Below the pieces are notes generated by a model. It worked only from the letters and a program-made list of their open reading frames with translations. It had not been told where the DNA came from and did no database searches. From Membranipora membranacea (lineage: Eukaryota; Bryozoa; Gymnolaemata; Cheilostomatida; Membraniporidae), in assembly GCA_914767715.1 (NCBI GenBank), contig OU612070.1, forward strand, positions 24,662,025 to 24,726,024: DNA of 64,000 bases, in the 5' to 3' direction. Numbering within the stretch: position 1 is the stretch's first letter; each line of letters starts with the position of its first letter. This document shows, in pieces, positions 7,231-54,594 of this stretch. The translations under genes were made by a program, and so were the position numbers.

Positions 7231-8142
7231 TTACCCGTCTACGATTTTTTCTTTGTTCTCATCCCAGAAATCCCCAGCTGTGTCTACAAGGCCGTCCCAC
7301 ACGTTGCTGAACCTGTTCGGTTTAAAAAATAAAAAAGCAAATGAATAGCTGTAAAGGAAACAACTTTTGTAACCATCCAAATGCACATACATCATGTTGA
7401 GTGTACCCATTACGTGGGTGCAAATCATCAAAGCCAGAACTTAATTCAGGACGTAATTCCCTCTGATCCATTTCTGGGATGCCTGTTAAGTTTTTTTACA
7501 ATTTTTATATTTCAGACAAATATTTTTCATTTTACTTTTAACCACTCCCGCAAATTTTTTACACCAGAAGAGCTGTAATGGTAATTTTAATGTCCCCCCA
7601 TTTAAATATTTCCGTGGTTGAAATAAAGCTACACACATACAAACTTACAATAGCAGCTCAAATCTGGGAGAGGTGAAATCTTCAGCGATATATAAACCAT
7701 CATAGGCTCATGACAAATATCTGATTAAGACCAAATTAAATAATCATAATTGATGTTTCTCATTTAAACAGAAACTCTGTGAATAGTAAGTAAGAGCGCA
7801 AAAATGATTTGAGAAAAGGCATAGCAAGTTGAGTGGACCAAGTCCACACTTGATATATTCTTCTATCTTCGTTTGAAGATATCACATATACATATATTGA
7901 TATTATTGTTATTATAGTAGGTAAGTAGCTAGGTCACTGCAACGGTCAAATGGTATCTGAAAATTTGACATGAACTATAAAAGAAAATAGGAATATAAAA
8001 ATCTGTATTTGGTGGTCTCAAATACTCACCATCCTCTAGGTTGAAGAACACGAACTCGTGTAGTCTCGCTTTTTGCGGTTGCAATCATCACCATCAAACA
8101 CACCATCAGTGCCAGGAGAAGATTAGATTTAATCAGCTGCAT
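7231..8142 (-). CDS. SP1: small secreted amphipathic-helix peptide
   Basis: Exon 1 (8030-8142) encodes 37 residues plus two bases: a signal peptide (hydrophobic residues 7-23, likely cleavage after the AxA at 21-23), then ETTRVRVLQPRGW. Its donor is GTGAGT. Exon 2 (7231-7312), after a TTTAAACCGAACAG acceptor, encodes FSNVWDGLVDTAGDFW, DENKEK and IVDG, then TAA. The total is about 64 residues. The mature part is acidic, with hydrophobic and aromatic residues spaced for one face of a helix. I do not recognise the family, and function is unknown; an antimicrobial, allelochemical or pheromone-like role is only inference. The stop overlaps a donor-like GG|GTAAGA, so a third exon at about 7110-7180 is possible. 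The intron is about 717 bases. Confidence 0.72.
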
Positions 8143-8226
8143 GGTTGTATGTTACTCTGTTACTGTGTGAGATGACAGAGAAGTTGTCTTGAAGTTGACT
8201 GATGGAAAACTTCTGAGGTGCAGCAG

Positions 8227-8266
8227 TTTTATATGATTTCTTTTGAGGTTATTTCCTGAAAGAAAT
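8227..8266 (-). promoter_or_regulatory. SP1 core promoter: TATA box and ATTTCC palindrome
   Basis: On the - strand a TATAAAA box (8227-8233) lies 85 bases upstream of the SP1 ATG. About 30 bases downstream of it is an initiator-like CCATCAGTC. Further upstream is ATTTCnnnnnGAAAT (8251-8266), containing TTCnnGAA spacing. Units 2-5 carry a cleaner version, ATTTCCTGAAGGAAAT. It could bind a heat-shock-, STAT- or ETS-type factor; the sequence does not decide which. Confidence 0.55.
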
Positions 8267-8558
8267 CCTGTAAGCCTTGAATTCAACGCAACATAATCAG
8301 TAAATAACAAGTCATGGAACATTGACGTGGCATCAGCTTGTTCCTTGATAGAAGAGATGAACTTCATTAACATGAGTTGATGGCGTGTTTAGTAACAGGT
8401 CTCCACTCCAGTTGGGTGGTGACAACTACTGCTTCGTAGTGATATGATATTGATACTCTGCTGCGCCACGCGGTGCTGATATTGAAATTGTGTCTGTTTT
8501 TGCCGATTTAGATATTTGGGTGGTGACAACTACTGCTTCGTGGTCTTTTAGAATTTAC

Positions 8559-8707: not shown

Positions 8708-11552
8708 CTAATTAAAAACGGCAATATGATAGCTCGCTCAACGAGGGGTTGATAACTGCTCACTCGCTCACTCACTGATGGAACTATATAATTTCTGCTG
8801 AGTGTGCGGTTTGGGAGCAATTTTGTCTAATTGGAAGACGATGTGAGTGATAATTTTGAGTGAAAAGGGAGTGATGCCTTAGTAAAGCATTGCTGACTCC
8901 AATTGAAAGACCCCCCAGTTTCTCACATTCTCAACTGATCGAGCCAACAGCAACAAATCCAAACCTTTTGTGGTGATGTTTGGCTCAGAACTGTTGAAAC
9001 TTGTGGGGATAAGAATTATCCCAAGATCTCTGCATATGTCTTTGGAAAATAACTAATAAGAAATTAAGGACTTGATGTCAAATAATGCTAGATAAATATT
9101 AAGAAGACTTGACAAGGCAAGGGCTGTGATTACGATAGAAGGAGGCCTCCAGATGCGCTGGTGTGCCCTTTTATGCGCAGAGCCACCAGACATACGTCAG
9201 GCTCTGCCCAGCTGCAAGTGAGAATTTTTAGTTGTGCTGTACTGTACTGTATTGTATTGTATCATATCAAATTGTATTGTATTGTACCATACATACACGC
9301 CTGTCTCACTCATCACTTAAAATAGCCTGAGCCGGTATGATACAAACCTACACAACTGTCTTTAGCGCACCAATTCGACTTGTTTATCCAGCTGGAATCA
9401 AGTTGGAAAGCTTTTAACGCCATTATGTAGCTGATGAAAATACAAGGCTGATTTCTTTGACAATCTCAGGTGGAAGATGGCGTGATTTCCTGATTACTTT
9501 AGACCCAAGGAAAATCGTACAGGAAATCGTGAAAATTGATAAAACATAGATGAAGTTGCTTGCGAAACTCATTCAAGGTAACTCATATCCAACTCACAAG
9601 TTAGCGTCTTTTCTTATCTCAGTAAAATACCATTTTCTTCATAGAAGCATCTGTCTCTTAACGGCTGAGAAACTCTTACAGTCAGCAGACTATGCAAAGG
9701 GAATCAGGGGCAGAACATACAATCCATTGTTTAGATGACTGTTCGACTTAAAAATGACCTAGGTCATGTCTTGATTTCATTCTATCCAAAGTGTTTGTAC
9801 GTCCTGTTACTTCATATTTCGTATTGGTACATGGCACTGATATATATTACATGGATTAGGAAAAATCGGTAAAAGAAAAGAAAAGAAAAGAAAGAAAACC
9901 ATAAATAACTCTATACAATCGGATAGTGCCTAATTTCTTCACCCTCAAACTTAATAAAGAGAGAACGACTTCTTGAGAATGTTGACATTGTTATGGGCAA
10001 ACTTCTAATTTGCACACATCGTTGGCTTTAAGTTTAATTTTTTATCGGTTGAATTTTAATCATATCATCAAAGGCAGTATGAGCTACAGAAGACAAGCAG
10101 ACTTTTTTAGCTTGCGATGATGAGACTAATGAATCAAGGAACTAGCATTGAGTTGTATTTCATCGAGGTTATTTAGCTCTCAGCTTTTCCTTGTTTCTGT
10201 TTTGCATATAGCCTTCACAGTTTCCTGTTTTGTTGTTGTCCTGATAGACAGGATATCATGCCATCCAGGTTGGCCTTGATGCTAAGCAGAATACTGAGCG
10301 CGAGGGTTGTGAAAATGAAGAACAACTAAATGCATAGCTCCAGCAATATATTTTTGTGTGATAGATACCTTAGTTTTAGTCTAGTAATGTATTTTTGTCA
10401 AATGTGTATTATTTTTATCACAAGAATTTTACACTGAGGCGCTGTGTGCTGACCAGTAAGTTGGTTCAGATATAATTTGATTGATTCCGCAGTAGTCATG
10501 TCTACAAGTCATGTAGGGAGCTTTCATGACGAACTGGTCCTGCCTCAAGTGTATCTATTTCCTTAGTGTAGATATAAACTATTGCCTTCCTGTCAGAAAC
10601 AAGGCCCCAGGCATTTGGCTCAGCTTTGGCTGATGCTCAGACAAAATGAAACTGATAGAAATTTGTTTATCGTCATAGGAAATAAACTGCACTATTATTG
10701 TATATTTGAGAGTCCATAATGTAGGTCAGAATCAGATGCCTTTAAATTCACATTTGTCTGGTTTTGTTTCTAGGCTAACTACGTTGGCCACTAGACCAAA
10801 AAGTGGTTGGCTCCAATGATTGAATATATTATAACTAAAACAATGCAAAATTCCGTTAGACTCCTCCTGTAATATTGGACGATTTCATACACAACCGTTG
10901 AATGTCTTCTGATTACGCTACTTTTAGTAGGTGGGCACAAGAGTTTGCTCTCTCCTTGGTAATAATTGTGATACTGCAGCTAGTCATTCTCATGTAGTCG
11001 GATGTGCTGACGAAACAACGATATCAAACCAACATATGTAGTCATTGTCAGTCAAATCAGGACAGCTTTACCTGAGTTGTCATGGATCACAGTATGCTTT
11101 TTACTCACGCTATATGAACAAAAATAACCTCTTTTCTGCTTCCGCTCGGTTCTGGTTTAGTTGGTGTGTTTCTGATTCCAGTAATTTCCTCTCTTACCAA
11201 TACTTCACTACAGGCAACCCCCATGCAGAACAGTAAACCCACTGTTACAATTGCTGATCATGTCAAATCTCTCTGTTAAGAAAGTGGGCAACTCCATACA
11301 AAACGTATTTTAGGAATTTGATTAGTTGGTTAAAATCGCGAGGTTTCGTCACTCACCGCATCCCAGAGAAGTGGTGTACGCTTCACTGATCATAAATAAT
11401 TGTCCAACTTAATAAACATATCACAGTATATGCAAGAAACAATGCAATTACTGATGTTGCTGAACTTTATTTTCACACTTTGTTCAGGGTATTTATTTTT
11501 CTAACTTGCAGCCAATTGTTCAAAAGATGTGTGGCGGGCTATGATCTTTTAG
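8708..11552. other. Conserved inter-gene spacer, unit 1
   Basis: This spacer is repeated in units 2, 3, 4 and 5. It holds a TGTAT-rich tract (9237-9292), AAAAG repeats (9873-9895) and an open frame of 62 codons (9550-9738, +) ending EKLLQSADYAKGIRGR... that stays open in all five full copies. It also holds another at 11045-11236 (+) that is open in the three copies without LINE. Replacement changes dominate in the first, and I found no domain, so I do not call genes. The long spacer may be intronic or regulatory. Confidence 0.5.
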
Positions 11553-11560
11553 ATTAAGAC

Positions 11561-12033: not shown

Positions 12034-12035
12034 CT

Positions 12036-12212: not shown

Positions 12213-12510
12213 TTAATGGTGGCCACACAATGTTCTGTCAGCACCATAGACTTAATAGTCAGTACCTACTCTGGTATAATATATTTCTAAAATTAAATGC
12301 CAAATTTATAGTCTTTTTTTATTGGTTTTACGAGGAAGTCGGAGAAACTTTAAAACAATATTTCAGGCTTTCCTGCCCTAACAGCAGTGTGGAAAAACCA
12401 GATGTTACAACAAAACACGTCATTATCTGAGAAAATGGAACTAAGTGCAATGCTGATAATACAGTGGGAAAGGGATGGAAGCAGTGATTTGATTGATTGC
12501 TTGATCGATC

Positions 12511-12597
12511 GACCGACCGACCGACCAACCGACCGACCGACCGACCGACCGACCGACCGACCGACCGACCGACCGACCGACCTACCGACCGACCGAC
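12511..12597. repeat. (GACC)n microsatellite, unit 1
   Basis: Roughly twenty copies of GACC with two interruptions (ccaacc and cctacc). Read through, it would encode Val-Gly-Arg-Ser or Asp-Arg-Pro-Thr repeats, but these are artefacts. Array length differs between units 1, 2 and 5. Confidence 0.97.
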
Positions 12598-14526: not shown

Positions 14527-14539
14527 TCACAGTTGAAAC

Positions 14540-16693: not shown

Positions 16694-18082
16694 TTAACAG
16701 TAGACACACCATGCACGAGCAGCTGTTGAACTTAGAGAGGCTCGTTGAACGGTATTTAATGCGATTGTCGGGAAGGTTGTTGAAGCAACTGCTGGTATAG
16801 TTGTGGGAGCAGTTGTTGGAGCGGTTGTTGGAACAGTTGTTGGAGCGTTTGTTGGAACAGTTGAGGGAGCGGTTGTTGGAACAGTTGTTGGAGCAGTTGT
16901 TGGAACAGTTGTGGGAGCGGTTGTTGGTACAGTTGTCGGAGCAGCTGTTGGGGAGCTTGATAGAGTGGTTGCCACATCCGCAGCAGGACAAGAAAATACC
17001 CACACATTCCGAATCTTACAATCTTCACTGGTTACTGGCTCACAAATTGCTGGATGGCTGAGGGCTGCTTCCTCTGGTGGTGAGGCTATAAAATAGCCAT
17101 AAGAATAAGCAACAAACTCAGACTTGACCTATATATTTATTTAATTTCAAAAGATATGGGATAAAATTATGCAGAGATAATTTGGTTTTTCTTTCTATAT
17201 AAAGCTAGCTGACTGCTTCAAATGGGTCCTTCAGAGGTTAGGAAAGGTAGATGGAAGGGTAATAACATAAAGTGATATACACACCTCCTGTTGTCCAAGT
17301 ACAATCTGGATCTCCAAGCTCTTCTCCATTTGATTTTCCATCTCCATCTGAATCCTGGTTGCATAAATCAACTGTCCAAGTCTGAGAAGTAAGAGGAACA
17401 ATATCGAATATGATGCGTGTGCTGATTATATCTCCTTCTAGAGGAGAGGGAGGGCAAAGAGTTAATGATATGAAAATATGACACATCAACTGCAGTACAC
17501 CAGCAAAAGAAGCCGATGAGCAAAATACGGTGAAGCATCTCAACTAGGACCCACATATCACCCTCTTCAACTATCTTCCAAGCAACATGCAAAACATGTG
17601 TATAGCTAGAGAGATGGAATCATTACGGGATAAGTATGATAAAATTTGGCTATGAAATTTCTCTAAAGTGTAAGGTGTGCTGTCACCAACTCACAACAAA
17701 TTCTCGAGCAGACAGCTATAGCCTGAAAACACACTAAATCCAGAAAAAGATGTGAGATTCGGCAACAATGAAAGTCATCGAGAGTGATTGTAATAACAAA
17801 TAGACAGTTGAAAAACTCAAACCACTCCCAAAAATCTTTTTAAAAAGACTCTAAAGGCTCTATAGACTTACTCTTCCTGCAGCGAGAAAGGCGAGTCCAA
17901 ACACATTTCTTGCATTAGCACCATTTATACTTTCATGACCAACTCCAGGCCATACATCCCCAGCCACAGTAGAACATGTGTTCGGTACAGAATCACCATT
18001 AGGTATTCATGATTGGAAACTAAAGAATGCATCTATCATGCTCAAGCAGCATATTAGAACAAAAACTCCACCGAGGGTTGGT
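16694..18082 (-). pseudogene. T2: temptin-like gene with mucin-like tail, stop in exon A
   Basis: Three exons fit one reading frame. Exon A (17872-18082) has the signal-like stretch, PNGDSVPNTC and GLAFLAAGR. Exon B (17285-17381) has TWTVDLCNQDSDGDGKSN then GEELGDPDCTWTTG, intact. Exon C (16694-17085) has SHPAICEPVTSEDC then a Thr/Pro/Ala repeat tail ending AWCVYC-stop. The layout matches temptin (NGxxVPxxC, GxGH, RNxFG, DSDGDG, HPxICEP) with an added O-glycosylation-type tail. In exon A the arginine codon CGA before IPNG is TGA, a CpG-type transition, so the only copy with intact exons B and C is stopped early. The first exon with ATG was not found. Reassembly error or population polymorphism remains possible. 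Confidence 0.85.
16795..16960 (-). repeat. Thr-Pro-Ala coding tandem repeat in T2 exon C
   Basis: Twelve-base units alternate to give PTTA and PTTV blocks (codons such as CCA ACA ACT GTT). This is a mucin-like segment in frame with the temptin C-terminal domain. Open frames seen on the other strand and in the other two frames are by-products of the repeat. It is absent from T1, T3 and T4, where the LINE or its scar begins just downstream of the cysteine domain. Confidence 0.85.
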
Positions 18083-19978
18083 CTACAGAATCACAAAGGA
18101 ATCATAAATACAAGGGGCATAACTTTCTATAATCTCTTAATTTTTCTTGTATATCGGCACTGTTTCACACGAATGGTTTTTGCATGAATTCATTAACATG
18201 ACTCAAACGTGTTTTTTCTAAGTATATAGTATCTAATAGCATATATGATACCTATACTCTAACAAATATACAGACAAAGATTATTTTTCTCACTGATTGC
18301 CCATCAGTAAAGACTGGCACAATCGTTTTCTGATCGCTGCTTGCTGTTTGAGAATGAGATATTGTTATCATGTCATTGGTTTCTTGATAGAACTATTAAA
18401 AATTATCTTCTGGGTGACAAATTTGGAACAACATTGACCTCATCAAAGCCACTATTGTAGCATAATGATCATTAAGATAAATCATGTATTTCTGTCAAAT
18501 TTTGCTTCCAATGTTTAATAAATATTTTGAATTCTTAAAAAACTGAGTTTCCTTTTTATTTCAGACTTCACCCAGTTCCCAAGCGACAGGTGTGACATTA
18601 TATTTGCATAAAAAATGTTTATCATATACGCCTTCAGTTACCTACCTGATAACTGCCATATTGTGGTATTAGGTCTGTATCGTCTAAAATTATTCAAACT
18701 TCTTTTCGTAAGCCTCACTGCTTCTCTCAAAGTGTCAGTGATAAGTATGAGTCCGCTTCATTTACAGAGAGTTATATTATTATTTAAAATCGCTGTTTCA
18801 CTGATTTTTATTTATTTACCAATCAACTTTTTTGTTAAATTTTAGCCTCAGACCTACCAGCGCACAATAAGATATTTATTGTTGAGGGTGCATTTTACTT
18901 TTCATCATCTCTGTTATATTCCTAGTTTTAGTTCACTCAGGCTAAACTTGGAATATAATATAGGTTGTACCAATTTGGCAGCCAAATAATACCAAAATGG
19001 GAAACTGAGTATTAGGTAAGAGATGATTTGTGGAATATCCGTCTATTTAATGATTAAAAATTTTAAACGATTTCCGAGAAGACTAATTCCTTGACATTTA
19101 ATTACCACAATTTGAAACATTCCATTTTTCTCTGCATTCAGCAGCAAGCAGCATTACGCTGGTCGGGGCAAGTAGATAGCACTTATTTTTGTCACAACTA
19201 TTACCATCAGAGTTTTAGTCGTTATTCAATCACATACCACATTCTATTTATTTTAACTCAAATGACTTTAAAGCTGTACTTGTGTGACAGCAAAGAAAAT
19301 TGATTACTGAAAAACCGTCATCATGGTTTTTGTGTACTCCACCTTGATGTTCAACATTTTAGTTTTCTCTGCTTTCAGCGACATGCGGTCTTTCACTGAC
19401 CATGATTGTTATTACATTTTTTAAACTTTTGACCTGTAGCCTATGGTTTAAAAGACAGCTTTTGTGACATTGCATAATATTTATTCTTTCATGATTATAA
19501 CACTTTATTTATGATGGTATATATAATAGGTTCGGTTATCCTTGTATCAGCTGCAATCCACTAGTAAGCCTGTTTACTTTTTCCCAGCCACAACAGCTCC
19601 GACCACGCTAAAAATGCAATAGAATAGAAAGATAAAAATCCTTGAAAAATACTTTCATGAGAACTCAATTTAATCGCAGTTTACACAGGCATTTTATGAC
19701 CATATGAACTTAATAATTGAAAACCGCTCACAACATGCATTGAGAAGACAATACATATTATCATATAAGAACGTGACAGACAAACCATAAACATATAAAT
19801 ACCTAACTTATGTATTTATATGTTTATGATACCAACAGTCTTTGTCTTAGGTATTGCTATACATCGACCTCAGTTTGAGAGGAAGTTTGCGGGAGGTATG
19901 TGAATTTGCAATCAAGTTTTTGGCTGCTGCATAATTTTTTAACCAAAGTCATTTCAAAGTATAAGATATATTTCATAC
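18083..19978. other. Spacer between T2 and SP2
   Basis: Nearly identical to the unit 1 spacer, but it keeps about 130 bases (18228-18357) missing from unit 1. No supported gene. The possible third SP2 exon would fall at about 19830-19940. Confidence 0.5.
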
Positions 19979-20800
19979 TCTGATATGAGTTCTTCTTTGT
20001 TCTCATCCCACACATCCACAGCTGTGTCTACAAGGCCGTCCCACACGTTACTGAACCTGTTCGGTTTAAAAAATAAAAAAGCAAATGAATAGCTGTAAAG
20101 GAAACAACTTTTGTAACCATCCAAATGCACATACATCATGTTGAGTGTACCCATTAGGTGGGTGCAAATCATCAAAACCAGAACTTAACTCAGGGCGTAA
20201 TCCCCTCTGATCCATTTCTGGGATGCCTGTTAAGTTTTTTTACAATTTTTATATTTCAGACAAATAGTTTTCGTGGTCGAAATAAAGCTACACACATACA
20301 AACTTACAATAGCAGCTCAAATATGGGAGAGGTGAAAACTTCAGCGATATATAAACCATCATGGGCTCATGACAAATATTTGATCAAGGCCAAATTAAAT
20401 AATCATAATTGATGTTTCTCATTTAAACAGAAACTCTGTGAATAGTAAGTAAGAGCGCAAAAATGATTTGAGAAAAAGCATAGCAAGTTGAGTGGACCAT
20501 GTCCACACTTGACATATTCTTCCTATCTTCGTTTGAAGATATCACTTATTCATATATTTATTATTGTTATTATAGTAGGTAAGTAGCTAGGTCACTGCAA
20601 CGGTCAAACGGTATCTGAAAATTTGACATAAACTATGAAAGAAAATAGGAATTTAAAAATCTGTATTTGGTGGTCTCAAATACTCACCATCCTCTAGGTT
20701 GAAGAACACGAACTCGTGTAGTCTCGCTCTTTGCGGTTGCAATCATCACCATCAAACACACCATCAGTGCCAGGAGAAGATTAGACTTAATCAGCTGCAT
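19954..20800 (-). CDS. SP2: small secreted amphipathic-helix peptide
   Basis: Exon 1 (20688-20800) is the same 37-residue signal and N-terminal exon as SP1, donor GTGAGT, phase 2. Exon 2 starts at 20056 and encodes FSNVWDGLVDTAVDVW, DENKEE and LIS. It then either splices at TCAGA|GTATGA (19979) or reads on to YEIYLIL and a stop at 19954. It differs from SP1 at AGD to AVD, FW to VW and the last residues. The intron is about 631 bases and close to identical to that of SP1. Function unknown; see SP1 for the family description. Confidence 0.72.
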
Positions 20801-25264: not shown

Positions 25265-25368
25265 CGACCGACCGACCGACCGACCGACCGACCGACCGAC
25301 CGACCGACCGACCGACCGACCGACCGACCGACCGACCGACCGACCGACCGACCTACCGACCGACCGAC
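25265..25368. repeat. (GACC)n microsatellite, unit 2
   Basis: About 26 GACC units with a single interruption (cctacc) near the right end; longer than the arrays in units 1 and 5. Confidence 0.97.
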
Positions 25369-32591: not shown

Positions 32592-34240
32592 CCCATCAGT
32601 AAAGACTGGCACAATCGTTTTCTGATCGCTGCTTGCTGTTTGAGAATGAGATATTGTTATCATGTCATTGGTTTCTTGATAGAACTATTACAAATTATAT
32701 TCTGTTGGGTGACAAATTTGGAACAACATTGACCTCATCAAAGCCACTATTATAGCATAATGATCATTAAGATAAATCATGTATTTCTGTCCAATTTTGC
32801 TTCCAATGTATAATAAATATTTTGAATTCTTTAAAAACTGAGCTTCATTTTTATTTCAGACTTCACCCAGTTGCCAAGCGACAGGCGTGACATTATATTT
32901 GCATAAAAAAATGTTTATCATATACGCCTTTAGTTACCTAGCTGATAACTGCCATATTATGGTATTAGGTCTGTACCGTCTAAAATTATTCAAACTACTT
33001 TACGTAAGCCTCACTGCTTCTCTCAAAGTTTCAGGGATAAGTATGAGTCCACTTCATTTACAGAGAGTTATATTATTAATTAAAATCGTTGGTTCACTGA
33101 TTTTTATTTATTTACCCATAAACTTTTTTGTTAAATTTTAGCATCAGACCTACCAGCGTACAATAAGACATTTATGGTTGAGAGTGCATTTTACTTTTCG
33201 TCATCTCTGTTATATTCCTAGTTTTAGTTCACTCGGGCTAAACATGGAATATAATATTGGTTGTACCAATTTGGCAACCAAACAATACCAAAATGCGAAA
33301 CTCAGTATTAGGTAAGAGATGATTTGTGGAATATCCGTCTATTTAATGATTAAAAAGTTTAAACGTTTTCCGAGAAGACTAATTCATTGACATTTAATCA
33401 TCACAATTTGTAACATTCCAGTTTTCTCTGCATTCAGCAGCAAGAAGCATTACGCTGGTCGGGGCAAGTAGATAGCACTTATTTTTGTCACAACTGATAC
33501 CATCAGAGTTATAGTCGTTATTCAATCACATACCGCATTCTATTTATTTTAACTCAAATGACTTTAAAGCTTTACTTGTGTGACAACAAAGAAAATTTGA
33601 TTACTGAAATACCGTCATCATGGTTTTTGTGTACTCCGGCTCAATGGTCAACATTTTAGTTTTCTCTGCTTTCAGCGACATGCGGTCTTTCACTGACCAT
33701 GATTGTTATTACATTTTTTTAAAATTTTAAACCTGTAGCCTATGGTTTAAAAGACAGCTTTTGTGACATTGCATAATAATTATTCTTTCATGATTATAAC
33801 ACTTTATTTATGATGGTACATATTACAGGTTCGGTTATCCTCATATCAGCTGCAGTCCATTAGTAAGTCTGTTTACTTTAACCCATCTAAAAGATCGGTT
33901 ACCACGCTAAAAATAGAAGATTTTCATGAGAACTCGATTTGATCACAGTTAATGCAGACAATGCATAAATGATGATGATATGAACTTTATTATTGAAAAC
34001 CGCCCAAAACATGCATCGAGAAGACAATACACATCATATAAGAACGTGACAGACAAACCATATAAATACTTAGTACATGTATTTATATGTTTATGATACC
34101 AACAGTCTTTGTCTTTGGCATTGCTATTCATCGACCTTAGTTTGAGAGGTAGTTTGCAGGAGATTCGGCGATGAGGTTTTTTGCTGCTTGCATGGTTTTT
34201 AATCAAGTTCATTTCAAAGTATATAGGATATATTTCATAC
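32592..34240. other. Spacer before SP3, unit 3
   Basis: Begins abruptly at the gypsy break with cccatcagtaaagactgg, the same bases found at 18300, 42189 and 52276. No temptin gene precedes it. The 84-codon open frame at 32887-33141 corresponds to shorter or shifted frames in other units. Confidence 0.5.
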
Positions 34241-35147
34241 CCTTCTATGATTTCTTCTTTGTTCTCATCCCAGACATCTGCAACAGTGCCTAGAAGGCCG
34301 TCCAACAAGTCGCTGAGCCTGTTCGGTTTAAAAAATAAAAAAGCAAATGAATAGCTGTAAAGGAAACAACTTTTGTAACCATCCAAATGCCCTTACATCA
34401 TGTTGAGCGTGCCCATTACGTCGGTGCAAAACATCAAAACCCGAACTTAACTCAGGGCGTAATCCCCTCTGACCCATTTCCGGGATGCCTGTTAAGTTTT
34501 TTTACAATTTTTATATTTCAGACAAATATTTTTATTTTACTTTTAACCGCTTCCGCAATTTTTTCTACACCAGAAGACCTGTAATGGTAATTTTGAATGT
34601 CCCCCATTTAAATATTTCCGTGGTCGAAATAAAGCTACACACATACAAACTTACAATAGCAGCTCTAATGTGGGAGAGGTGAAATCTTCAGCGATATATA
34701 AACCATCATGGGCTCATGACAAATATCTGATCAAGACCAAATTAAATAATCATAATTGATGTTTCTCATTTAAACAGAAATTATGTGAATAGTAAGTAAG
34801 AGCGCAAAAATGATTCGAGAAAAAGCATAGCAAGTCGAGTGGACCAAGTCCACACTTGATATATTCTTCATATCTTCGTTTGAAGATATCACTTATACAT
34901 ATATTTATTATTGTTATTATAGTAGGTAAGTAGCTAGGTCACTGCAACGGTCAAATGGAATCTGAAAATTTGACATGAACTATAAAAGAAAATAGGAATT
35001 TAAAAATCTGTATTTGGTGGTCTCAAATACTCACCATCCTCTTGGTTGAATAACACGAACTCGTGTAGTCTCGCTCTTTGCGGTTGCAATCATCACCATC
35101 AAACACACCATCAGTGCCAGGAGAAGATTAGACTTAATCAGCTGCAT
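34241..35147 (-). CDS. SP3: small secreted amphipathic-helix peptide
   Basis: Exon 1 (35035-35147): same signal peptide, with VIQPRGW at its end (I for L). Exon 2 (34241-34318): LSDLLDGLLGTVADVW, DENKEE and IIEG, ending at a GG|GTATGA donor. Without splicing the frame runs on to 33949 with unlikely composition, so splicing to a third exon (acceptor near GCAAGCAG at about 34185) is favoured here. Hydrophobic residues fall at i, i+3/4 positions. It is closest to SP5 in sequence. Function unknown. Confidence 0.7.
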
Positions 35148-36824: not shown

Positions 36825-37028
36825 CTGAGATAAAAATGTGTAATACAGTAAAATATTATATAACCGTCTGAACAATGAACTTATCTTCTGAACTCAGTTA
36901 GGGCCTTAGCCACACAATAAAATGCAATCAAGTCATAGCAACATAGAGATAAAATCATTAACAACGAATTCGATTAGACAACGCTATCCTCTGGTCAAAT
37001 CCACAACACCTGGTCTTTTAGAATTTAC

Positions 37029-39532: not shown

Positions 39533-40513
39533 AGTTGAATTCCGAAGTGAATGGCTGTACAAGAAAAACTGCTCTCTAACAAACAATTTAAGTAGAAAAC
39601 AAAATTTACTAGTAATGGCATGGGATACACCTGGTACAAATACGTGTAAAACAAAGAGGAAAGCAACAGATACTGGGAACGACCTGCTGAGTATGCTGAG
39701 TATCGATTCATCTACAACTATACGAAGCAGATGGAGATAAAAATGGATGCCCTGAAGGCAGAAAACAAGGCTTTACACGAACGCCTGGATTTAATTGAAA
39801 ACAGCTCAACTACAGGAATAGCTGCCGCTATTAGCAAAGAGCTGACAAACTACTTTGATGGCTCGAGAGTGCCTCTTCCATCTGGGAGTCCGTCGCCATC
39901 GATAGAAGCCATGGAAGATGAAGCAACTTCTACTCAAGATAAGCTGTACTCAGCAGCACCACCAACCAGCCAGGCTCCCAAACTTGCTTCCGTTCAATCT
40001 GAACGTCAATCTATTCCTACCACTCAATTTCACCAGCATCCTCTCGATCCTAAAAGTAGTGTTGTAATTTACAATATTCAGGATAAAGAGAAAATCACCA
40101 AAGACAGCATAAGGTCTACTGTGAATAGTGTACTGGGACCAACTTTGATAGTGTCTATCAACAAGTACGCCTGGGAATCATCACAACCTAAATACATGGT
40201 CCAGCTAAAAAAGGAAGCCGATGCCCTAACATTGTTAGAAAAGTGGAAACCTGATACCCTGCATAACACCAAAGTTCGTGCAACGAGAACCCCTGAAAAG
40301 CATGTTGGAATGCTTCTTAATGTCCCTACCAGCTTCAGCGATATTAAAATGCAGCAAGACATACAAGCAAAATATCCAGGCACTGCATGTAGTCGCATTG
40401 TAATAAAAGATATCCTACACATACCGTCAAGATAGTTTTTACCGATGAGCAATCTTTAGAAGAGTGTCTTGAAAATGGAGTTAGACTTAATAGCTACAGT
40501 TCAATATGGATGG
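39533..40513 (+). mobile_element. LINE remnant L3 (ORF1 only)
   Basis: Same insertion point as L1 and L4 on the left. ORF1 is complete, but everything after the start of the following spacer (equivalent to 2355-4425) is missing, and the sequence jumps into the temptin exon C at a short ggttact match. It is complementary to L1, which lost ORF1 but kept ORF2. Confidence 0.82.
39731..40435 (+). pseudogene. LINE ORF1 protein, L3
   Basis: A 234-codon open frame. The N-terminus (MEIKMDALKAENKALHERL) is a heptad-like coiled coil, the middle is Ser/Pro/Thr-rich, and from about residue 110 a domain begins SSVVIYNIQDKEKI with an RNA-binding-fold look. It ends RIVIKDILHIPSR. Such proteins coat LINE RNA. 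An upstream piece (MASDTPGTNT... IRSRWR) lies in another frame and overlaps the start, so the original ORF1 was probably longer and a shared frameshift separates its head. The frame is open, but no intact ORF2 is associated. Confidence 0.72.
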
Positions 40514-41183
40514 TTACTGGTTACTGGCTCACAAATTGCTGGATGGTTGAGAGCTGCTTCCTCTGGTGGTGAGGCTATAAAATAAGCATAAGAATTAGCA
40601 ACAAACTCAGACTTGACCTAAATATTTATTTAATGTCAAAAGATATGGGATAAAATAAAGCAGAGTTAATTTGGTTTTCTTTCTATATAAAGCTTGCTGA
40701 CTGCTTCAAATGGGTCCTCCAGAGGTTAGGAGAGGTAGATAAAGTGATATACACACCTCCTGTTGTCCAAGTACAATCTGGATCTCCAAGCTCTTCTCCA
40801 TTTGATTTTCCATCTCCATCTTAATCCTGGTTGCATAACTCAACTGTCCAAGTCTGAGAAGTAAGAGGGAGCAATATCGAATATGATGTGTGTGCTAATT
40901 ATAACTCCTTCTAGAGGAGAGGGAGGGCAAAGAGTTAATGATATGAAAATATGACACATCAACTGCAGTACACCAGCGAAAGAAGCCGATGAGCAAAATT
41001 CGGTGAAGCATCTCAACTAGGACCCACATATCGCCCTCTTCAACTATCTTCCGAGCAACATGCAACACATGATAGGGGCGTATATTCTAAAAAATTTCAC
41101 TCACTGACTTTTCAGAGATGAGCATAATAATTGGGCGCAGCCCGATCCACATGCCGTAGGCGTGGCGGGGAGGGTGTGGGAGG

Positions 41184-41977: not shown

Positions 41978-43866
41978 CTACAGAATCACAAAGGAATCAT
42001 AAATACAAGGGGCATAACTTCTATGAATTCTTCTTGTATATCGGCACTGTTTCACATGAATGGTATTTGCATGAATTCATTAACATGACCCAAACCTGTT
42101 ATTTCTAATTATATAGTATTTAATAGCATATATGATACCTATACTCCAACAAAATATACAGACAAAGATTTTTATTCTCACTGATTTCCCATCAGTAAAG
42201 ACTGGCACAATCGTTTTCTGATCGCTGCTTGCTGTTTGAGAATGAGATATTGTTATCATGTCAATGGTTTCTTGATAGAACTATTACAAATTATCTTCTG
42301 GGTGACAGATTTGGAACAACATTGACCTCATCAAAGCCACTATTATAGCATAATGATCATTAAGATAAATCATGTATTTCTGTCCAATTTTGCTTCCAAT
42401 GTATAATAAATATTTTGAATTCTTAAAAAACTGAGTTTCCTTTTTATTTCAGACTTCACCCAGTTACCAAGCGACAGGCGTGACCTTATATTTGCATAAT
42501 TTTTTTTTATCATATACGCCTTTAGTTACCTACCTGATAACTGCCATATTATGGTATTAGGTCTGTATCGTCTAAAATTATTCAAACTACTTTTCGTAAG
42601 CCTCACTGCTTCTCTCAAAGTGTCAGGGATGAGTGTGAGTACGCTTCATTTACAGAGAGTTATATTATTAATTAAAATCGCTGGTTCACTGATTTTAATT
42701 TATTTACCAATCAACTTTTTTGTTAAATTTTAGCATCAGACCTACCAGTGCACAATAAGATATTCATGGTTGAGGGTGCATTTTACTTTTCATCATCTCT
42801 GTTATATTCCTAGTTTTAGTTCACTCAGGCTAAACTTGGAATATAATATAGGTCGTACCAATTTGGCAACCAAAAAATACCAAAATTTGAAACTGAGTAT
42901 TAGGTAAGAGATGATTTGTGGAATATCCGTCAATTTAATGATTAAAAATTTTAAACCATTTCCGAGAAGACTAATTCATTGAAACTTAATCATCACAATT
43001 TGTAACATTCCAGTTCTCTCTGCATTCAGCAGCAAGCAGCATTACGCTGGTCGGGGCTAGTAGAAAGCGCTTATTATTGGCACAACTGATACCACGCAAG
43101 TTATAGTCGTTATTTAATCACATACCACATTCTATATATTTTAACTCAAATGGCTTTAAAGCTTTACTTCTGTGACAGCAAAGAAAATTGATTACTGAAA
43201 TACCGTCATCATGGTTTTTGTGTACTCCACCTTAATGGTCAACATTTTAGTTTTCTCTGCTTTCAGCGACATGTGATCTTTCACTGACCATGATTGTTAT
43301 TACATTTTTTTAACTTTTGACCTGTAGCCTATGGTCTAAAAGACTGCTTTTGTGACATTGCATAATATTTATTCTTTCATGATTATAACACTTTATTTAT
43401 GATGGTATATATAATAGGTTCGGTTATCCTCGTATCAGTTGCAATCCACTTGTAAGCCTGTTTACTTTTTCCCAGACACAACAGCTCCGACCACGCTAAA
43501 AATAGAATGGAATAGAAAGATAAAAATCCTTGAAAAACACTTTCATGAGAACTCGATTTAATCGCAGTTTACACAGGCATTTTATGACATTATGAACTTA
43601 ATTATTGCAAACCGCTCACAGCATGCATTGAGACGACAATACATATTATCATATAAGAACGTGACAGACAAACCATAAACATATAAATACCTAACTTATG
43701 TATTTATATGTTTATGATACCAACAGGCTTTGTCTTAGGTATTGCTATACATCGACGTCAGTTTGAGAGGAAGTTTGCGGGAGGTATGTGAATTTGCAAT
43801 CAAGTTTTTGGCTGCTGCATAATCTTTTAACGAAAGTCATTTCAAAGTATAAGATATATTTCATAC
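41978..43866. other. Spacer between T3 and SP4
   Basis: Same composition as the unit 2 spacer. The 60-codon frame at 42551-42733 is a shortened form of the frames at 5871 and 32887. No supported gene. Confidence 0.45.
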
Positions 43867-44739
43867 CCTTCTATGATTTCTTCTTTGTTCTCATCCCAGA
43901 AATCCTCAGCTGTGTCTACAATGCCGTCCCACGCGTCGCTGAGCCTGTTCGGTTTAAAAAATAAAAAAATAAATGAGTAGCTGTAAAGGAAACAACTTTT
44001 GTAACCATCCAAATGCACATACATCATGTTGAGCGTGCCCATTACGTGGGTGCAAATCATCAAAACAAGAACTTAACTCAGGGCGTAAATTCTGGGATGC
44101 CTGTTAAGTTTTCTTACAATTTTTATATTTCAGACAAATATTTTTCATTTTACTTTTAAATACTCCCGCAAATTTTTTACACCAGAAGACCTGTAATGGT
44201 AATTTTGAATGTCCCCCCCATTTAAATATTTCCGTGGTCGAAATAAAGCTACACACATACTACAAACTTACAATAGCAGCTCAAATATGGGAGAGGTGAA
44301 AACTTCAGCGATATATAAACCATCATAGGCTCATGACAAATATCTGATCAAGGCCAAATTAAATAATCATAATTGATGTTTCTCATTTAAACAGAAACTA
44401 TGTGAATAGTAAGTAAGAGCGCAAAGATTATTTGAGAAAAATCATAGCAAGTCTAGTGGACCATGTCCACACTTGATATATTCTTCCTATCTGCGTTTGA
44501 AGATATCACTTATACATATAGGTCACCAGGTCACTGCAACGGTCAGACGGTATCTGAAAATTTGACATAAACTATAAAAGAAAATAGGAATATAAAAATC
44601 TGTATTTGGTGGTCACAAATACTCACCATCCTCTAGGTTGAAGAACACGAACTCGTGTAGTCTCGCTCTTTGCGGTTGCAATCATCACCATCAAACACAC
44701 CATCAGTGCCAGGAGAAGATAAGACTTAATCAGCTGCAT
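43842..44739 (-). CDS. SP4: small secreted amphipathic-helix peptide
   Basis: Exon 1 (44627-44739): signal peptide with N7 changed to Y, ending VLQPRGW. Exon 2 (from 43944): LSDAWDGIVDTAEDFW, DENKEE and IIEG. It then either splices at GG|GTATGA (43867) or reads YEIYLIL to a stop at 43842. Intron about 682 bases. Its helix mixes features of SP1/SP2 (WDGxVDTA) and SP3/SP5 (LSD start, EEII), which suits recombination between copies. Function unknown. Confidence 0.72.
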
Positions 44740-48168: not shown

Positions 48169-48873
48169 ATGGAGATAAAAATGGATGCCCTGAAGGCAGA
48201 TAACAAGGCTTTACACGAACGCCTGGATTTAATTGAAAACAGCTTAACTACAGGAATAGCTGCCGCTATTAGAAAAGAGCTGACAAACTACTTTGATGGC
48301 TCGAGAGTGCCTCTTCCATCTGGGAGTCCGTCGCCATCGATAGAAGCCATGGAAGATGAAGCAACTTCTACTCAAGGTAAGCTGTACTCAGCAGCAGCAG
48401 CAACCAGCCAGGCTCCCAAACTTGCTTCCGTTCAATCTGAACGTCAATCTATTCCTACCACTCAATTTCACCAGCATCCTCCCGATCCTAAAAGTAGTGT
48501 TGTAATTTACAATATTCAGGATAAAGAGAAAATCACCAAAGGCAGCATAAGGTCTACTGTGAATAGTGTACTGGGACCAACTTTGATAGTGTCTATCAAC
48601 AAGTACGCCTGGGAATCAACACAACCTAAATACATGGTCCAGCTAAAAAAGGAAGCCGATGCCCTAACATTGTTAAAAAAGTGGAAACCTGATACCCTGC
48701 ATAACACCACAGTTCGTGCAACGAGAACCCCTGAAAAGCATGTTGGAATGCTTTTTAATGTCCCTACCAGCTTCAGCGATATTAAAATGCAGCAAGACAT
48801 ACAAGCAAAATATCCAGGCACTGCATGTAATCGCATTGTAATAAAAGATATCCTACACATACCGTCAAGATAG
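48169..48873 (+). pseudogene. LINE ORF1 protein, L4
   Basis: 234 codons, nearly identical to the L3 product: coiled coil, Ser/Pro/Ala-rich middle and the RIVIKDILHIPSR end. The upstream head (MASDTPGTNT...) is again in a different frame, so the frameshift predates the duplication. Confidence 0.72.
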
Positions 48874-49001
48874 TTTTTACCGATGAGCAATCTTTAGAAG
48901 AGTGTCTTGAAAATGGAGTTAGACTTAATAGCTACAGTTCAATATGGATGGTTGAAAAACCTCGTTATTCATCGTTGAAACCTCCAACCGCTTGACTATA
49001 T

Positions 49002-49716
49002 ATGCAAAGTGACAACATAAATAACAATAACATGACAAATGGTGAATGCGGACATCCAAGAATCTATTTCCACAACATGCGATCCCTCAACTCAGAAAAG
49101 TTTGAAGAACTAAAGCTACTATCTTCAAACTATGATTTCTTACCGCTAACTGAGTCCTGGCTAACTAAGGCCAAAAAGAAGCTATACGAGATAGCAGATT
49201 TCAACGTTTACTATACCCATAGAGTAAACAGAAAAGGAGGTTGGAGTTGCCATTTATGCAAGAAATGAGTTTTCGTGCAAAGTCATTCAGAGATACACTA
49301 ATCAACATGTATCTGCTTGCTGGATGTTACATCGCCCTGCTAACGTTAATCACAATCCAGTGATTATTGGAGTTGTGTATCATCCTCCGAATCTATCCAA
49401 ATGTATAAAAGAAGAAACAATTGATCATTTGGTTTCAAGTATAGCCAAATTCCTGGCTACACATAGATCAGCTCGTTTCATCATATGCGGCGATTTTAAT
49501 GATCTAGACACTAGACATATATCTGTCCTGTTCCCTGTTAAATATATAGTCTCCTTTGCTACCAGAGATCTCGTCTTCACAGATATCGCCGAGTACTATG
49601 ATGATTGCACAAAGCTTGCTCCAATAAGCACAAATGACCACTGGGCAATTACACTTGATCCATCAGACTGCAAGTCCGAGGTATCGTGCTGTCAAAAAAA
49701 GGGAAATAACCCCTGA
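49002..49716 (+). pseudogene. LINE L4 endonuclease domain, frameshifted
   Basis: Frames 49002-49268 and 49324-49716 hold NMRSLN, LPLTESWL, then GVVYHPPN, IICGDFND and TNDHWAIT. A one-base change at about 49240 shifts the frame after RKGG, and the residues ESNTLD before LVFTD are deleted relative to L1. Inactive. Confidence 0.82.
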
Positions 49717-50825
49717 TTTGAAGGTATCTCTGACAAAGGAGCTCGCCAAGACAAATTGGGATTTCATTTATAATGAAAACTCACTCAATGTGAAAGTTTA
49801 TAAGTTCCAGCATTATGTATGGTCACTATATGATGAGCATTTTCCTATCAAGAATATCCGTGTACCTATGGGCAAACCTGTTATCACCTCTTCACTAATA
49901 CGTAAGTTGATTCATACAAAATACAGGGCTCATCGTCAAAACAACCCTGCATGGAAAGCCCTGTCAGCCATTCTGAAATATCATCAACAGAAAGAACAAC
50001 AGAAAAATACTGATAACGAAATAAACTCAGCATCCAGAGGATCTAAAGATTGGTGGAACAGCATAAAGAGATTGACTGGAGGCATAACAACTCCCGTTTC
50101 ATCTCCAGTGGTGAGTGTCAATAACAATTGGGTCACAAATGCAGAGTTCTCAGGATACTATAACAATTACCTTACCAACAACGACAGTGTCATTGAATTA
50201 CCTGACCATAATATTATTACAATTGATGGCATTCCATCGATAGAAGAATACGCGGTAAACTCCCACCTAGAAAATATAGATACCACTAAGGCAACCATAT
50301 CAGAGGATTACCCTTCATGGATATCAAAAAATAACTCGCATATTCTCTTTGAGCCTATAGCACACATCATTAACAAAATCTTTGAGTGTGGAAAATTCCC
50401 GATGCGAAGGAAGCGAGCAGAGGTCGTACCTATCAACAAAGTACCTGATCCATCTGCATATAAAGATTACCGCCCAATAAGTATTTCACATCATTTGAGC
50501 AAGGTGGCCGAGAGAATACTCTCCTGGCGCATTACAGAGAAACTTCCCACCCTCAAATACCAATATGCACACAAGGAATATTGGTACCACAGATGCTTTG
50601 GTGAACTTTTCATCTAGTGTGGCTAGCTTGCTTGATTGCAATGACAATCTCGGTGTTCAGGCATTAATGCTAGACTTCTCTAAAGCTTTTGACAAAATGC
50701 GTCCAGATCTCGCTGTCAAGAAACTTTTAAAACTGAAAATAGATGGATATCTTGTAGCTATAGACAGTTTTCTGAGCTCTGACTTAGGCCTCAACTCGGA
50801 GCTGCTGAAAAGAGGGTTATCTTGA
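49634..50825 (+). pseudogene. LINE L4 reverse transcriptase, N-terminal half
   Basis: Two frames, 49634-50617 and 50565-50825, break at the same point as in L1. Motif A (LMLDFSKAFDKM) is present; later motifs are missing. Differences from L1 are scattered, with no sign of coding constraint. Confidence 0.82.
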
Positions 50826-51002
50826 AAACCGCATATAATAGGATAAAAATTATTTTTGATTTAGAATCCGCAACATTGAAAACTCATAATATGGAAATAG
50901 TTTGGGAAATAATTTTAGTATTTGGATAGTCAATTTTAGAATTTTCTGTCTGTTTTGGGGACAATTTGGCATTTCATGAGTTTCGTCACTAAAATTGAGA
51001 TT

Positions 51003-52056
51003 TATCTTACAATCTTCACTGGTTACTGGCTCACAAATTGCTGGATGGTTGAGAGCTGCTTCCTCTGGTGGTGAGGCTATAAAATAAGCATAAGAATTAG
51101 CAACAAACTCAGACTTGACCTAAATATTTAATTAATGTCAAAAGATATGGGATAAAATAAAGCAGAGATAATTTGGTTTTCTTTCTATGTAAAGCTTGCT
51201 GACTGCTTCAAATGGGTCCTCCAGAGGTTGGGAGAGGTAGATAAAGTGATATACACACCTCCTGTTGTCCAAGTACAATCTGGATCTCCAAGCTCTTCTC
51301 CATTTGATTTTCCATCTCCATCTTAATCCTGGTTGCATAACTCAACTGTCCAAGTCTGAGAAGTAAGAGGGAGCAATATCGAATATGATGTGTGTGCTGA
51401 TTATAACTCCTTCTAGAGGAGAGGGAGGGCAAAGAGTTAATGATATGAAAATATGACACATGAACTGCAGTACACCGGCGAAAGAAGCCGATGAGCAAAA
51501 TACGGTGAAGCATCTCAACTAGGACCCACATATCGCCCTCTTCAACTATCTTCCGAGCAACATGCAAAACATGTGTACAGCTAGGGAGATGGAATCATTA
51601 CGGGATAAGTATGATAAAATTTGGCTATGAAGTTTCTCTAAAGTGTAAGGTGCACTGTCACCAACTCACCACAAATTCTCGAGCAGACAGCTATAGCCTG
51701 AAAACACACTAACTCCAGAAAAAGATGTGAGATTCGGCAACAATAAAAGTCATCGAGAGTGACTGCAATAACAAATAGACAGTTGAAAAACTCAAACCAC
51801 TCCCAAATTTTTTTTAAAAAGACTCTAAAGGCTCTACAGACTTACTCTTCCTGCAGCGAGAAAGGCGAGTCCAAACACATTTCTTGCATTAGCACCATTA
51901 ATACTTTTATGACCAACTCCAGGCCATACATCCCCAGCCACAGTAGAACATGTGTTCGGTACAGAATCACCATTAGGTATTCGTGATTGGAAACTAAGGA
52001 ATGCATCTATCATGCTCAAGCAGCATGTTAGAACAAAAAGTCCACCGAGGGTTGAT
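51003..52056 (-). pseudogene. T4: temptin-like gene, stop in exon B, tail replaced by LINE
   Basis: Exon A (51846-52056): signal-like GGLFVLTCCLSMIDAFLS, RIPNGDSVPNTC, WPGVGHK and ARNVFGLAFLAAGR. Exon B (51259-51355) has the shared TAA after CNQD. Exon C (51003-51076) keeps HPAICEP and then meets the LINE. Splice signals are intact, so transcripts may still be made. Confidence 0.82.
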
Positions 52057-53896
52057 CTACAGAATCACAAAGGAATCATAAATACAAGGGGCATAACTTT
52101 CTATAATCTATGAATTTTTCTTGTATATCGGCACTGTTTCACAAGAATGGTATTTGCATGAATTCATTAACATGACCCAAAGGTGTTATTTCTAAGTATA
52201 TAGTATTTAATAGTATAAATGATACCTATACTCTAACAAAATATACAGACAAACATTTTTTTTCTCATTGATTGCCCATCAGTAAAGACTGGCACAATCG
52301 TTTTCTGATCGCTGCTTGCTGTTTGAGAATGAGATATTGTTATCATGTCATTGGTTTCTTGATAGAACTATTACAAATTACCTTCTGGGTGACAAATTTG
52401 GAACAACATGGACCTCATCAAAGCCACTATTATAGCATAATGATCATTAAGATAAATCATGTATTTCTGTCCAATTTTGCTTCCAATGTATAATAAATAT
52501 TTTGAATTCTTAAAAAACTGAGTTTCCTTTTTATTTCAGACTTCACCCAGTTCCCAAGCGACAGGCGTGACATTATATTTGCATAAACAAATGTTTATCA
52601 TATACGCCTTTAGTTACCTACCTGATAACTGCCATATTATGGTATTAGGTCTGTATCGTCTAAAATTATTCAAACTACTTTTCGTAAGCCTCACTGCTTC
52701 TCTCAAAGTGTCAGGGATAAGTATGAGTCCGCTTCATTTACAGAGGGTTATATTATTAATTAAAATCACTGGTTCACTGATTTTAATTTATTTACCAATC
52801 AACTTTTTTGTTAAATTTTAGCCTCAGACCTACCACCGCACAATAAGATATTTATGGTTGAGGGTGTATTTTACTTTTCATCATCTCTGTTATATTCCTA
52901 GTTTTAGTTCACTCAGGCTAAACATGGAATGTAATATAGGTTGTACCAATGCGAAACTGAGTATAAGGTAAGAGATGGTTTGTGGAATATCCGTCTACTT
53001 AATGATTAAAAATTTTAAACGATTTCCGAGAAGACTAATTCATTGACATTAAATTATCACAATTTGTATCATTCCAGTTTTCTCTGCATTCCGCAGCAAG
53101 CAGCATTACGCTGGGTGGGGCTAGTAGATAGCACTTATTTTTGTCACAACTGATACCATCAGAGTTATAGTCGTTATTCAATCACATACCACATTCTATT
53201 TATTTTAACTCAAATGACTTTAAAGCTTTAGTTGTGTGACAACAAAGAAAATTTGATTACTGAAATACCGTCATCATGGTTTTCGTGTACTCCACCTCAA
53301 TGGTCAACATTTTAGTTTTCTCTGCTTTCAGCGACATGCGGTCTTTCACTGACCATGATTGTTATTACATTTTTTTTAAAATTTTAAACCTGTAGCCTAT
53401 GGTTTAAAAGACAGCTTTTGTGACATTGCATAATAATTATTCTTTCATGATTATAACACTTTATTTATGATGGTACATATAACAGGTTCGGTTATCCTCG
53501 TATCAGCTGCAGTCCATTAGTAAGTCTGTTTACTTTAACCCATCTAAAAGATCGGTTACCACGCTAAAAATAGAAACTTTTCATGAGAACTCGATTTGAT
53601 CACAGTTAACGCAGACAATGCATAAATGATGATGATATGAACTATATTATTGAAAACCGCCCAAAACACGCATCGAGAAGACAATACACATCATATAAGA
53701 ACTTGACAGACAAACCATATAAATACTTAGTACATGTATTTATATGTTTATGATACCAACAGTCTTTGTCTTTGGCATTGCTATTCATCGACCTTAGTTT
53801 GAGAGGTAGTTTGCAGGAGAATCGGCGATGAGGTTTTTTGCTGCTTGCATTTTCTTAATCAAGTTCATTTCAAAGTATATAGGATATATTTCATAC
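52057..53896. other. Spacer between T4 and SP5
   Basis: As in unit 3 from about 52276. An open frame at 52567-52821 (+) parallels the one at 32887. Without splicing, the SP5 reading frame extends into this spacer as far as 53794. Confidence 0.45.
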
Positions 53897-54594
53897 CTTG
53901 ATATGATTTCTTCTTTGTTCTCATCCCACACATCTGCAAATGTGTCTAGAAAGCCGTCCAACCAGTCGCTGAGCCTGTTCGGTTTAAAAAATAAAAAAGC
54001 AAATGAATAGCTGTAAAGGAAACAACTTTTGTAACCATCCAAATGCCCATACATCATGTTGAGTGTGCCCATTACGTGGGTGCAAAGCATCAAAACCCAT
54101 TAACTCAGGGCGTAATCCCCTCTGATCCATTTCTGGGATGCCTGTTAAGTCTTTTTACAACTTTTATATTTCAGAAAAATATTTTTATTTTACTTTTAAC
54201 CGCTTCCGCAATTTTTTTACACCAGTAGACCTGTAATGGTAATTTTGAATGTCCCCCCCATTTAAATATTTCCGTGGTCGAAATAAAGCTACACTCATAC
54301 AAACTTACAATAGCAGCTCAAATATGGGAGAGATGAAATCGATATATAAACCATCATGGGCTCATGACAAATATCTGATCAAGACCAAATTAAATAATCA
54401 TAATTGATGTTTTTCATTTAAACAGAAACTATGTGAATAGTAAATAAGAGCGCAAAAATGATTTGAGAAAAAGCATCTCACCATCCTCTTGGTTGAAGAA
54501 CACGAACTCGTGTAGTCTCGCTCTTTGCGGTTGCAATCATCACCATCAAACACACCATCAGTGCCAGGAGAAGATTAGACTTAATCAGCTGCAT
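53794..54594 (-). CDS. SP5: small secreted amphipathic-helix peptide, possibly with long C-terminus
   Basis: Exon 1 (54482-54594): same signal peptide, ending VLQPRGW. The donor is GTGAGA because about 200 bases of intron are deleted just inside it. Exon 2 (from 53974): LSDWLDGFLDTFADVW, DENKEE and IIS, the most aromatic version. It can splice at AAG|GTATGA (53897), or read on without a break through YEIYPIYFEMNLIKK, then MQAAKNLIADSP and ANYLSN to a stop at 53794, giving about 97 residues. The AAKNLIA part is recognisable but out of phase in the other copies, so this may be the ancestral C-terminus. Function unknown. Confidence 0.7.

Follow-up and report, generated by a model that had tools for sequence, protein, structure and literature searches.

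Why would five neighbouring copies of a small gene keep their signal exon almost unchanged while the exon that follows differs at codon after codon? The question is raised by a 64,000-nucleotide (nt) stretch of the bryozoan Membranipora membranacea (contig OU612070.1 of assembly GCA_914767715.1, positions 24,662,025 to 24,726,024 of the forward strand; hereafter the window), in which an earlier note had described five genes for tiny secreted peptides, SP1 to SP5, and suggested diversifying selection on a hypervariable amphipathic helix. Our analysis shows that the mature part of these peptides has evolved rapidly, mostly by replacement, and we put at roughly 0.5 the probability that the array is a tandem family coding for linear, anionic, secreted peptides of amphipathic-helix type, with a role as defence effectors that diversify rapidly.

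A tandem array of three-exon genes

The window is eukaryotic genome sequence, judged by its spliced genes and retrotransposon pieces, and its CpG content is 0.56 of expectation, closer to invertebrate than to vertebrate genomes. It contains a tandem array whose units measure roughly 8 to 15 kb. In five of these units an intact copy of a single small gene lies on the minus strand; the starts are at 8142 (SP1), 20800 (SP2), 35147 (SP3), 44739 (SP4) and 54594 (SP5), and the count agrees with that of the earlier note. A sixth unit, SP0, is truncated, retaining exon 3 and the 3′ end, with exons 1 and 2 gone. Exon 2 had been taken as the last exon; this was mistaken, as a third exon of 34 nt, including the stop, lies further on in every intact copy (371, 371, 334, 371 and 333 nt from exon 2 in SP1 to SP5). 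SP1 ends at 6830 and not at 7231, and the TAA formerly read as its stop sits inside the splice donor GTAAG.

With three exons, all five genes have exon lengths of 113, 78 and 34 nt and a precursor of exactly 74 amino acids (aa), with exon 1 coding for residues 1–37 and two bases of codon 38. Neither indels nor internal stops were found in the exons of the five copies, and gap patterns numbered 18 in intron 1 and 7 in intron 2. The first intron opens with GTGAG and the second with GTAAG (SP1) or GTATG (the other four), while acceptors end in CAG and TAG; splice sites and three open exons are present in all five copies. A two-exon model was rejected, giving unequal lengths of 64, 71, 160, 71 and 97 aa for SP1 to SP5, and this wrong model had hidden a C-terminus with an amidation-type signal. 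If intron 1 is retained, a stop codon directly follows P-R-G-W, leaving 38 residues in each of the five copies (8030–8142 and its counterparts).

Upstream, a TATA box and a TCAGTC motif, the latter taken to be the initiator and likely start site, bound a 37-nt block that is identical in all five genes except at one A/T position. A TATA box and TCAGT at such spacing are typical of arthropods, a weak lead. About 64 nt past the stop, a 36-nt poly(A) block with AATAAA is identical in all five.

Divergence of exon 2 against introns

The signal exon is nearly invariant, with 5 of 113 columns variable. In exon 2, by comparison, 14 codons differ by amino acid (39, 41, 42, 43, 46, 47, 48, 50, 51, 53, 60, 61, 62 and 63) and 2 differ only silently (40 and 49); split codon 64 also differs among copies. 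The invariant residues are W54-D-E-N-K-E59, D44-G45, S40, T49 and D52, and the replacements are largely hydrophobic for hydrophobic on one helical face. The signal exon, codon counts, fixed W-D-E-N-K-E block, central DG and hydrophobic swaps reported from first inspection were all reproduced when the five copies were compared codon by codon.

Introns had been described as nearly identical, which is true within but not between two classes of copies, {SP1, SP2, SP4} and {SP3, SP5}: intron 2 differs by 0.3–4.3% within classes and by 15–17% between them. Intron 1 differs by 3.7–6.5% between pairs. Exon 2 differs by 14–24% between classes, and these pairs prove nothing, because intron 2 diverges there as much as exon 2. 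Within classes, exon 2 exceeded the introns at P<0.05 in three of four pairs, namely SP1–SP2 (11/78 versus 24/1001, Fisher P 1.4e-5), SP2–SP4 (12/78 versus 45/963, P 6e-4) and SP3–SP5 (9/78 versus 31/838, P 0.0046); SP1–SP4 did not reach significance (8/78 versus 57/1047, P 0.074). For SP1–SP4 and SP2–SP4, one 78-nt window of the 3′ flank has more differences (13) than exon 2, in a flank scan that omitted 400 nt upstream, where {SP1, SP3, SP5} differ from {SP2, SP4} by 18–19%.

In a codon model with introns as the yardstick, the nonsynonymous rate (dN), expressed as a multiple of the intron rate, was 2.4–3.7 in the mature region (P 6.7e-6 to 1.8e-10) and 0.11–0.19 in the signal region; the tree was fixed to that of the mature region, kappa was fixed at 1.3, and columns with gaps were dropped, which left 407 of 724 in intron 1 and 324 of 380 in intron 2. 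The synonymous rate (dS) was 1.5–2.4 times the intron rate in the mature region (P 0.044–0.31) and 1.7–2.6 times in exon 2 (P 0.084–0.32). Six consecutive codons, W-D-E-N-K-E, carry no change, even silent (simulated P 0.008–0.017 at matched variability), and of the 12 variable positions where SP4 has a hydrophobic residue, 11 are hydrophobic in all five copies, compared with 37–55% in neutral simulations (P 0.009–0.013 at matched variability, with SP4 as root).

Several results weigh against adaptive diversification. By the dN/dS test that the earlier note had set for refutation, the ratio of the mature region, 1.57, is not significantly above 1 (likelihood-ratio test P 0.29), nor is that of exon 2 alone (1.53, P 0.43); mature dN and dS do not differ significantly in the intron-yardstick model (P 0.25–0.31); and hydrophobic retention loses significance when SP3 is the root (P 0.12–0.13). 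Pairwise Nei–Gojobori ratios for the mature region range from 0.79 to 2.15, plus one infinite value. Exon 2 has only about 14 silent sites, and the strict test fails because such sites are too few and silent changes are also raised. Of the diversifying selection first proposed, the excess of mature replacements over the introns holds; strict positive selection is not demonstrated.

The copies are also mosaics. SP1 clusters with SP3 and SP5 in the upstream region (53 sites) and with SP2 and SP4 in intron 2 and exon 3 (41 and 11 sites). Within exon 2, the four-gamete condition is violated 23 times among 11 informative sites; SP2 and SP5 also have in common a TCA codon that is 2 or 3 bases off the codon of the other copies. 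Short exchanges between copies would be the simplest reading of these patterns, and with exon 2 a recombinant mosaic, no single phylogeny applies.

Precursor and predicted helix

Residues 1–23 of the precursor resemble a signal peptide, judged by the −3/−1 rule. They are followed by a 13-residue pro-piece (24–36; KSETTRVRVLQPR, with RVRVIQPR in SP3) that has a charge of +3 in all five copies and ends at R36 in an R-X4-R arrangement. Side-chain charges of the mature part, computed without GKK where GKK is present, are −5 (SP1), −7 (SP2), −8 (SP3), −9 (SP4) and −8 (SP5), and residues 24–74 include no cysteine. A basic pro-piece joined to a predicted anionic helix inverts the charge order that is usual in precursors of cationic antimicrobial peptides. 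SP1, SP2, SP4 and the SP0 remnant end in GKK, a C-terminal glycine with basic residues of the amidation type; SP3 and SP5 end in GLK (...DGLK), which is not of this type. Calculated monoisotopic masses of the predicted mature peptides are 3792.84 (SP1), 3831.86 (SP2) and 3848.81 (SP4) for the amidated forms and, for the acids, 4011.03 or 4139.12 (SP3) and 4212.01 or 4340.11 (SP5), the second value in each pair counting the terminal K.

AlphaFold2 predicted a single helix, over residues 5–29 of 31, in both exon-2 fragments folded (mean predicted local distance difference test, pLDDT, 84.1 for SP3 and 80.9 for SP1), and the hydrophobic moment of residues 38–56 was 0.27–0.32 versus about 0.11 in shuffles (P 0.0002–0.0022). 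The case for amphipathicity is tempered by the choice of this segment only after the helical wheel had been seen, by weaker values for residues 37–64 (P 0.012–0.10) and non-significant ones for the whole mature part (P 0.06–0.18), and by the running of AlphaFold2 without an alignment on fragments with a few intron-coded residues at the front. Together, the promoter and poly(A) blocks, the signal, the indel-free exons, the predicted helix and the lack of a known family support the original reading of a small secreted peptide family with a variable, putatively amphipathic helix.

Search for relatives

The earlier note could name no known family, and our searches agree. None of the five precursors had a significant Pfam match (best E 0.085, below the cut-off; no BRICHOS match), and neither the SP1 sequence nor the family profile had one in the PDB (best E 0.48). 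Ninety stretches of viral contigs fitted a pattern, none confirmed; of 149 stretches in prokaryote genomes, the single one confirmed (L001) was an open frame inside a longer bacterial protein that shared only the word D-F-W-D-E-N-K, and it was rejected as a chance match. A literature text search with five peptide words gave no occurrence of four, and the occurrences of the fifth, 'wdenke', were judged irrelevant from the listing alone. The databases searched cover no animal genomes or transcriptomes, so the family may already be known in its own lineage; it is without a relative in these searches, and its novelty is provisional.

Proposed function and alternatives

As defence effectors, the SP peptides could operate as follows. 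A TATA-type promoter would drive transcription of the three-exon gene, whose anatomy is evident in all copies, and the signal peptide would be cut after A23. A convertase cut after R36, where R31 and R29 form what we take to be the consensus patterns R-X4-R and R-X6-R, would free a peptide starting GW; before cleavage, the cationic pro-piece may neutralise the acidic helix. The GKK end of SP1, SP2 and SP4 would be trimmed and amidated, and SP3 and SP5, with their LK end, would remain acids. With its acidic face outward, the helix could then meet a membrane or hydrophobic target through a single hydrophobic face rich in aromatic residues, so that action would probably require low pH or a divalent metal, a dependence that other anionic peptides are reported to have. 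Variants that keep the hydrophobic face but alter its shape are seen in the array and would have been retained by selection and reshuffled by small exchange tracts. Most antimicrobial peptides lack so strong a negative charge, which counts against a defence role; the charge also argues against the standard cationic mechanism and, by analogy with known anionic helices, favours a zinc- or low-pH/amide-type action instead.

Four other explanations were weighed. The peptides might be venom or skin-secretion components with the same anatomy, aimed at prey or predators, a role we regard as unlikely. The gene pattern resembles that of conotoxin genes, including the rise of both Dn and Ds in the mature exon, and the N-terminus resembles short membrane-active peptides, with a scorpion venom peptide reported as the nearest match to the nicomicin helix; the absence of cysteines and the strong acidity argue the other way.

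Slightly less plausible is a family of signal or recognition peptides, such as a pheromone or a kin or gamete signal, with one receptor per variant. The amidation-type end in three of five copies, the processing site and a W-D-E-N-K-E core that could anchor a receptor would all suit such a role, in which SP1/2/4 and SP3/5 would make two chemical classes. The swaps are, however, nearly exclusively hydrophobic and on one helical face, and variation of this kind is easier to reconcile with membrane contact than with a specific code.

We give a similarly low rating to an account without adaptive diversification, in which exon 2 is a weakly constrained hot spot, either for mutation or for exchange with diverged copies. 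It draws on the dN that is not significantly above dS, the 1.5–2.6-fold rise in silent divergence, the mosaic structure of exon 2 and the equal divergence of intron 2 between classes. A hot spot under weak constraint accords poorly with five copies free of indels and stops, six invariant codons amid the variation, hydrophobic retention and a constrained signal exon.

Finally, non-coding or dead repeats, or assembly artefacts, might be suggested by the transposon pieces that fill the array and by its one truncated copy, but this is very improbable given three open exons with splice sites in all five copies, which differ throughout (intron 1, 3.7–6.5%) and in spacing, so that they cannot be explained by the collapse or duplication of one copy during assembly.

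Returning to defence effectors, a more elaborate version is tentative and, in our judgement, doubtful: a charge-inverted arsenal in which a cationic pro-piece caps strongly anionic helices without cysteine, activated first by cleavage and next by acid or metal, with amidated and non-amidated classes, and in which the array would serve as a variant library whose exon-2 codons are reshuffled by tiny tracts while the flanks are kept alike. The five natural variants, putatively amidated and not, offer a ready set for studying how anionic helices act, and the locus is a small, clear case in which introns, not silent sites, must be the yardstick of rapid exon change.

Other features of the window

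Coordinates of the genes, the SP1 control blocks and a repeat near SP3 and SP5 are collected in Table 1.

Table 1. Positions in the window of the SP genes, the SP0 remnant and the ~330-nt repeat copies
Feature	Positions	Strand	Details
SP1 exon 1	8030..8142	-	signal peptide 1-23, pro-piece 24-36, first mature residues; donor GTGAGT
SP1 exon 2	7235..7312	-	hypervariable, predicted amphipathic helix; acceptor AACCGAACAG, donor GTAAGA
SP1 exon 3	6830..6863	-	C-terminus ...VVGAVVAGKK + stop; acceptor GCATTTTTAG
SP1 TATA box TATAAAA	8227..8233	-	37-nt conserved block
SP1 likely start site TCAGTC	A at 8200	-	27 nt from last base of TATA box
SP1 poly(A)-signal block (CATAAATAAAGTG...)	6737..6772	-	36 nt identical in 5/5
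SP2 exon 1	20688..20800	-	
SP2 exon 2	19979..20056	-	donor GTATGA
SP2 exon 3	19574..19607	-	...VVGAVVAGKK
SP3 exon 1	35035..35147	-	
SP3 exon 2	34241..34318	-	
SP3 exon 3	33873..33906	-	...VVTDLLDGLK
SP4 exon 1	44627..44739	-	
SP4 exon 2	43867..43944	-	
SP4 exon 3	43462..43495	-	...VVGAVVSGKK
SP5 exon 1	54482..54594	-	
SP5 exon 2	53897..53974	-	
SP5 exon 3	53530..53563	-	...VVTDLLDGLK
SP0 remnant, exon 3 alone	486..519	-	...AVTGLLNGKK; truncated sixth copy
~330-nt repeat copies, SP3	35445-35774, 36653-36981		
~330-nt repeat copies, SP5	54892-55221, 56096-56404		

The repeat is a stretch of about 330 nt beside SP3 and SP5 with a second copy about 1.2 kb off, 95–96% alike. Retrotransposon pieces of the long interspersed nuclear element (LINE) type with an Exo_endo_phos_2 endonuclease match lie at 2222–5611, 39650–41071 and 48821–52201; the first and last are 97% alike and were copied along with the array units. 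A broken gypsy-like element (30971–32684, minus strand) matches reverse transcriptase and integrase, in two frames that overlap. At 57211–57348, perfect inverted repeats of 62 nt flank a 14-nt loop; this may be a small mobile element hairpin or a recent foldback. Three (CGAC)n microsatellites in the array have 18 to 26 repeats (12506–12597, 25265–25368 and 63002–63073), and a mucin-like open frame (16694–17128, minus strand) has Thr/Pro-rich repeats with 12- and 24-nt periods and no Pfam match.

Rfam and tRNA scans of the window found nothing. The block upstream of the genes (8712–11048 and five other copies) gave no second-gene candidate among open reading frames of at least 45 aa in three listed copies, no family search having been made; the longest, 120 aa, occurs in one copy and is shorter in the other two.

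Comparison with known systems

Nicomicins, styelins, centrocins and conotoxins each have defining features that the SP family lacks. Conotoxin genes are reported to have three exons, a conserved signal exon and introns, and elevated Dn and Ds in the mature exon (PMC3862624), and the SP genes are alike in exon number, conserved signal exon and raised mature Dn and Ds. The SP genes thus show the pattern of a conserved signal exon and introns with a fast mature exon, the introns only within classes. Unlike conotoxins, however, the SP peptides have no cysteine framework, and their mature part is split over exons 1–3 without length variation.

The remaining likenesses are to helical peptides. Nicomicins, BRICHOS-related antimicrobial peptides of polychaetes with an N-terminal amphipathic helix, have a similar aromatic start, GFWSSVWDG, to the GWFSNVWDG of SP (PMC6780910, PMC6265681). 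They come, though, from a 239-aa precursor with BRICHOS and are cationic with a disulphide, whereas the SP precursor has 74 aa, no BRICHOS domain and an anionic, cysteine-free product. The styelins and botryllin of ascidians, like SP, are small helical peptides starting GW with furin-type processing suggested (PMC9966394); unlike SP, botryllin has a 158-aa precursor, a mature charge of +11.2 and a propeptide after the mature part (PMC9966394), where SP is anionic and stops directly after GKK or GLK. Like the SP precursors, the heavy-chain precursors of sea-urchin centrocins have a signal and a pro-piece, and a Gly-Arg amidation signal closes one centrocin chain (PMC4805251), but centrocins are cationic, with heavy and light chains joined by a disulphide that SP, without cysteine in the precursor after the signal, could not form.

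Two active helical peptides are likewise anionic: dermcidin, which forms a hexamer stabilised by zinc (PMC5681987), and maximin H5, in which the C-terminal amide matters and action rises at low pH (PMC8425997). Pfam family and PDB searches, the only tests made, found no sequence relation to either; the SP peptides share with them a negative net charge and a predicted helix, and have, by prediction, the net negative amphipathic helix that marks anionic antimicrobial peptides. Familiar fast-evolving arrays of secreted peptides are nearly all cationic or cysteine-rich. A diversifying family that is acidic and cysteine-free and has a basic pro-piece would mean that this evolutionary scheme can also operate with charges of the opposite sign.

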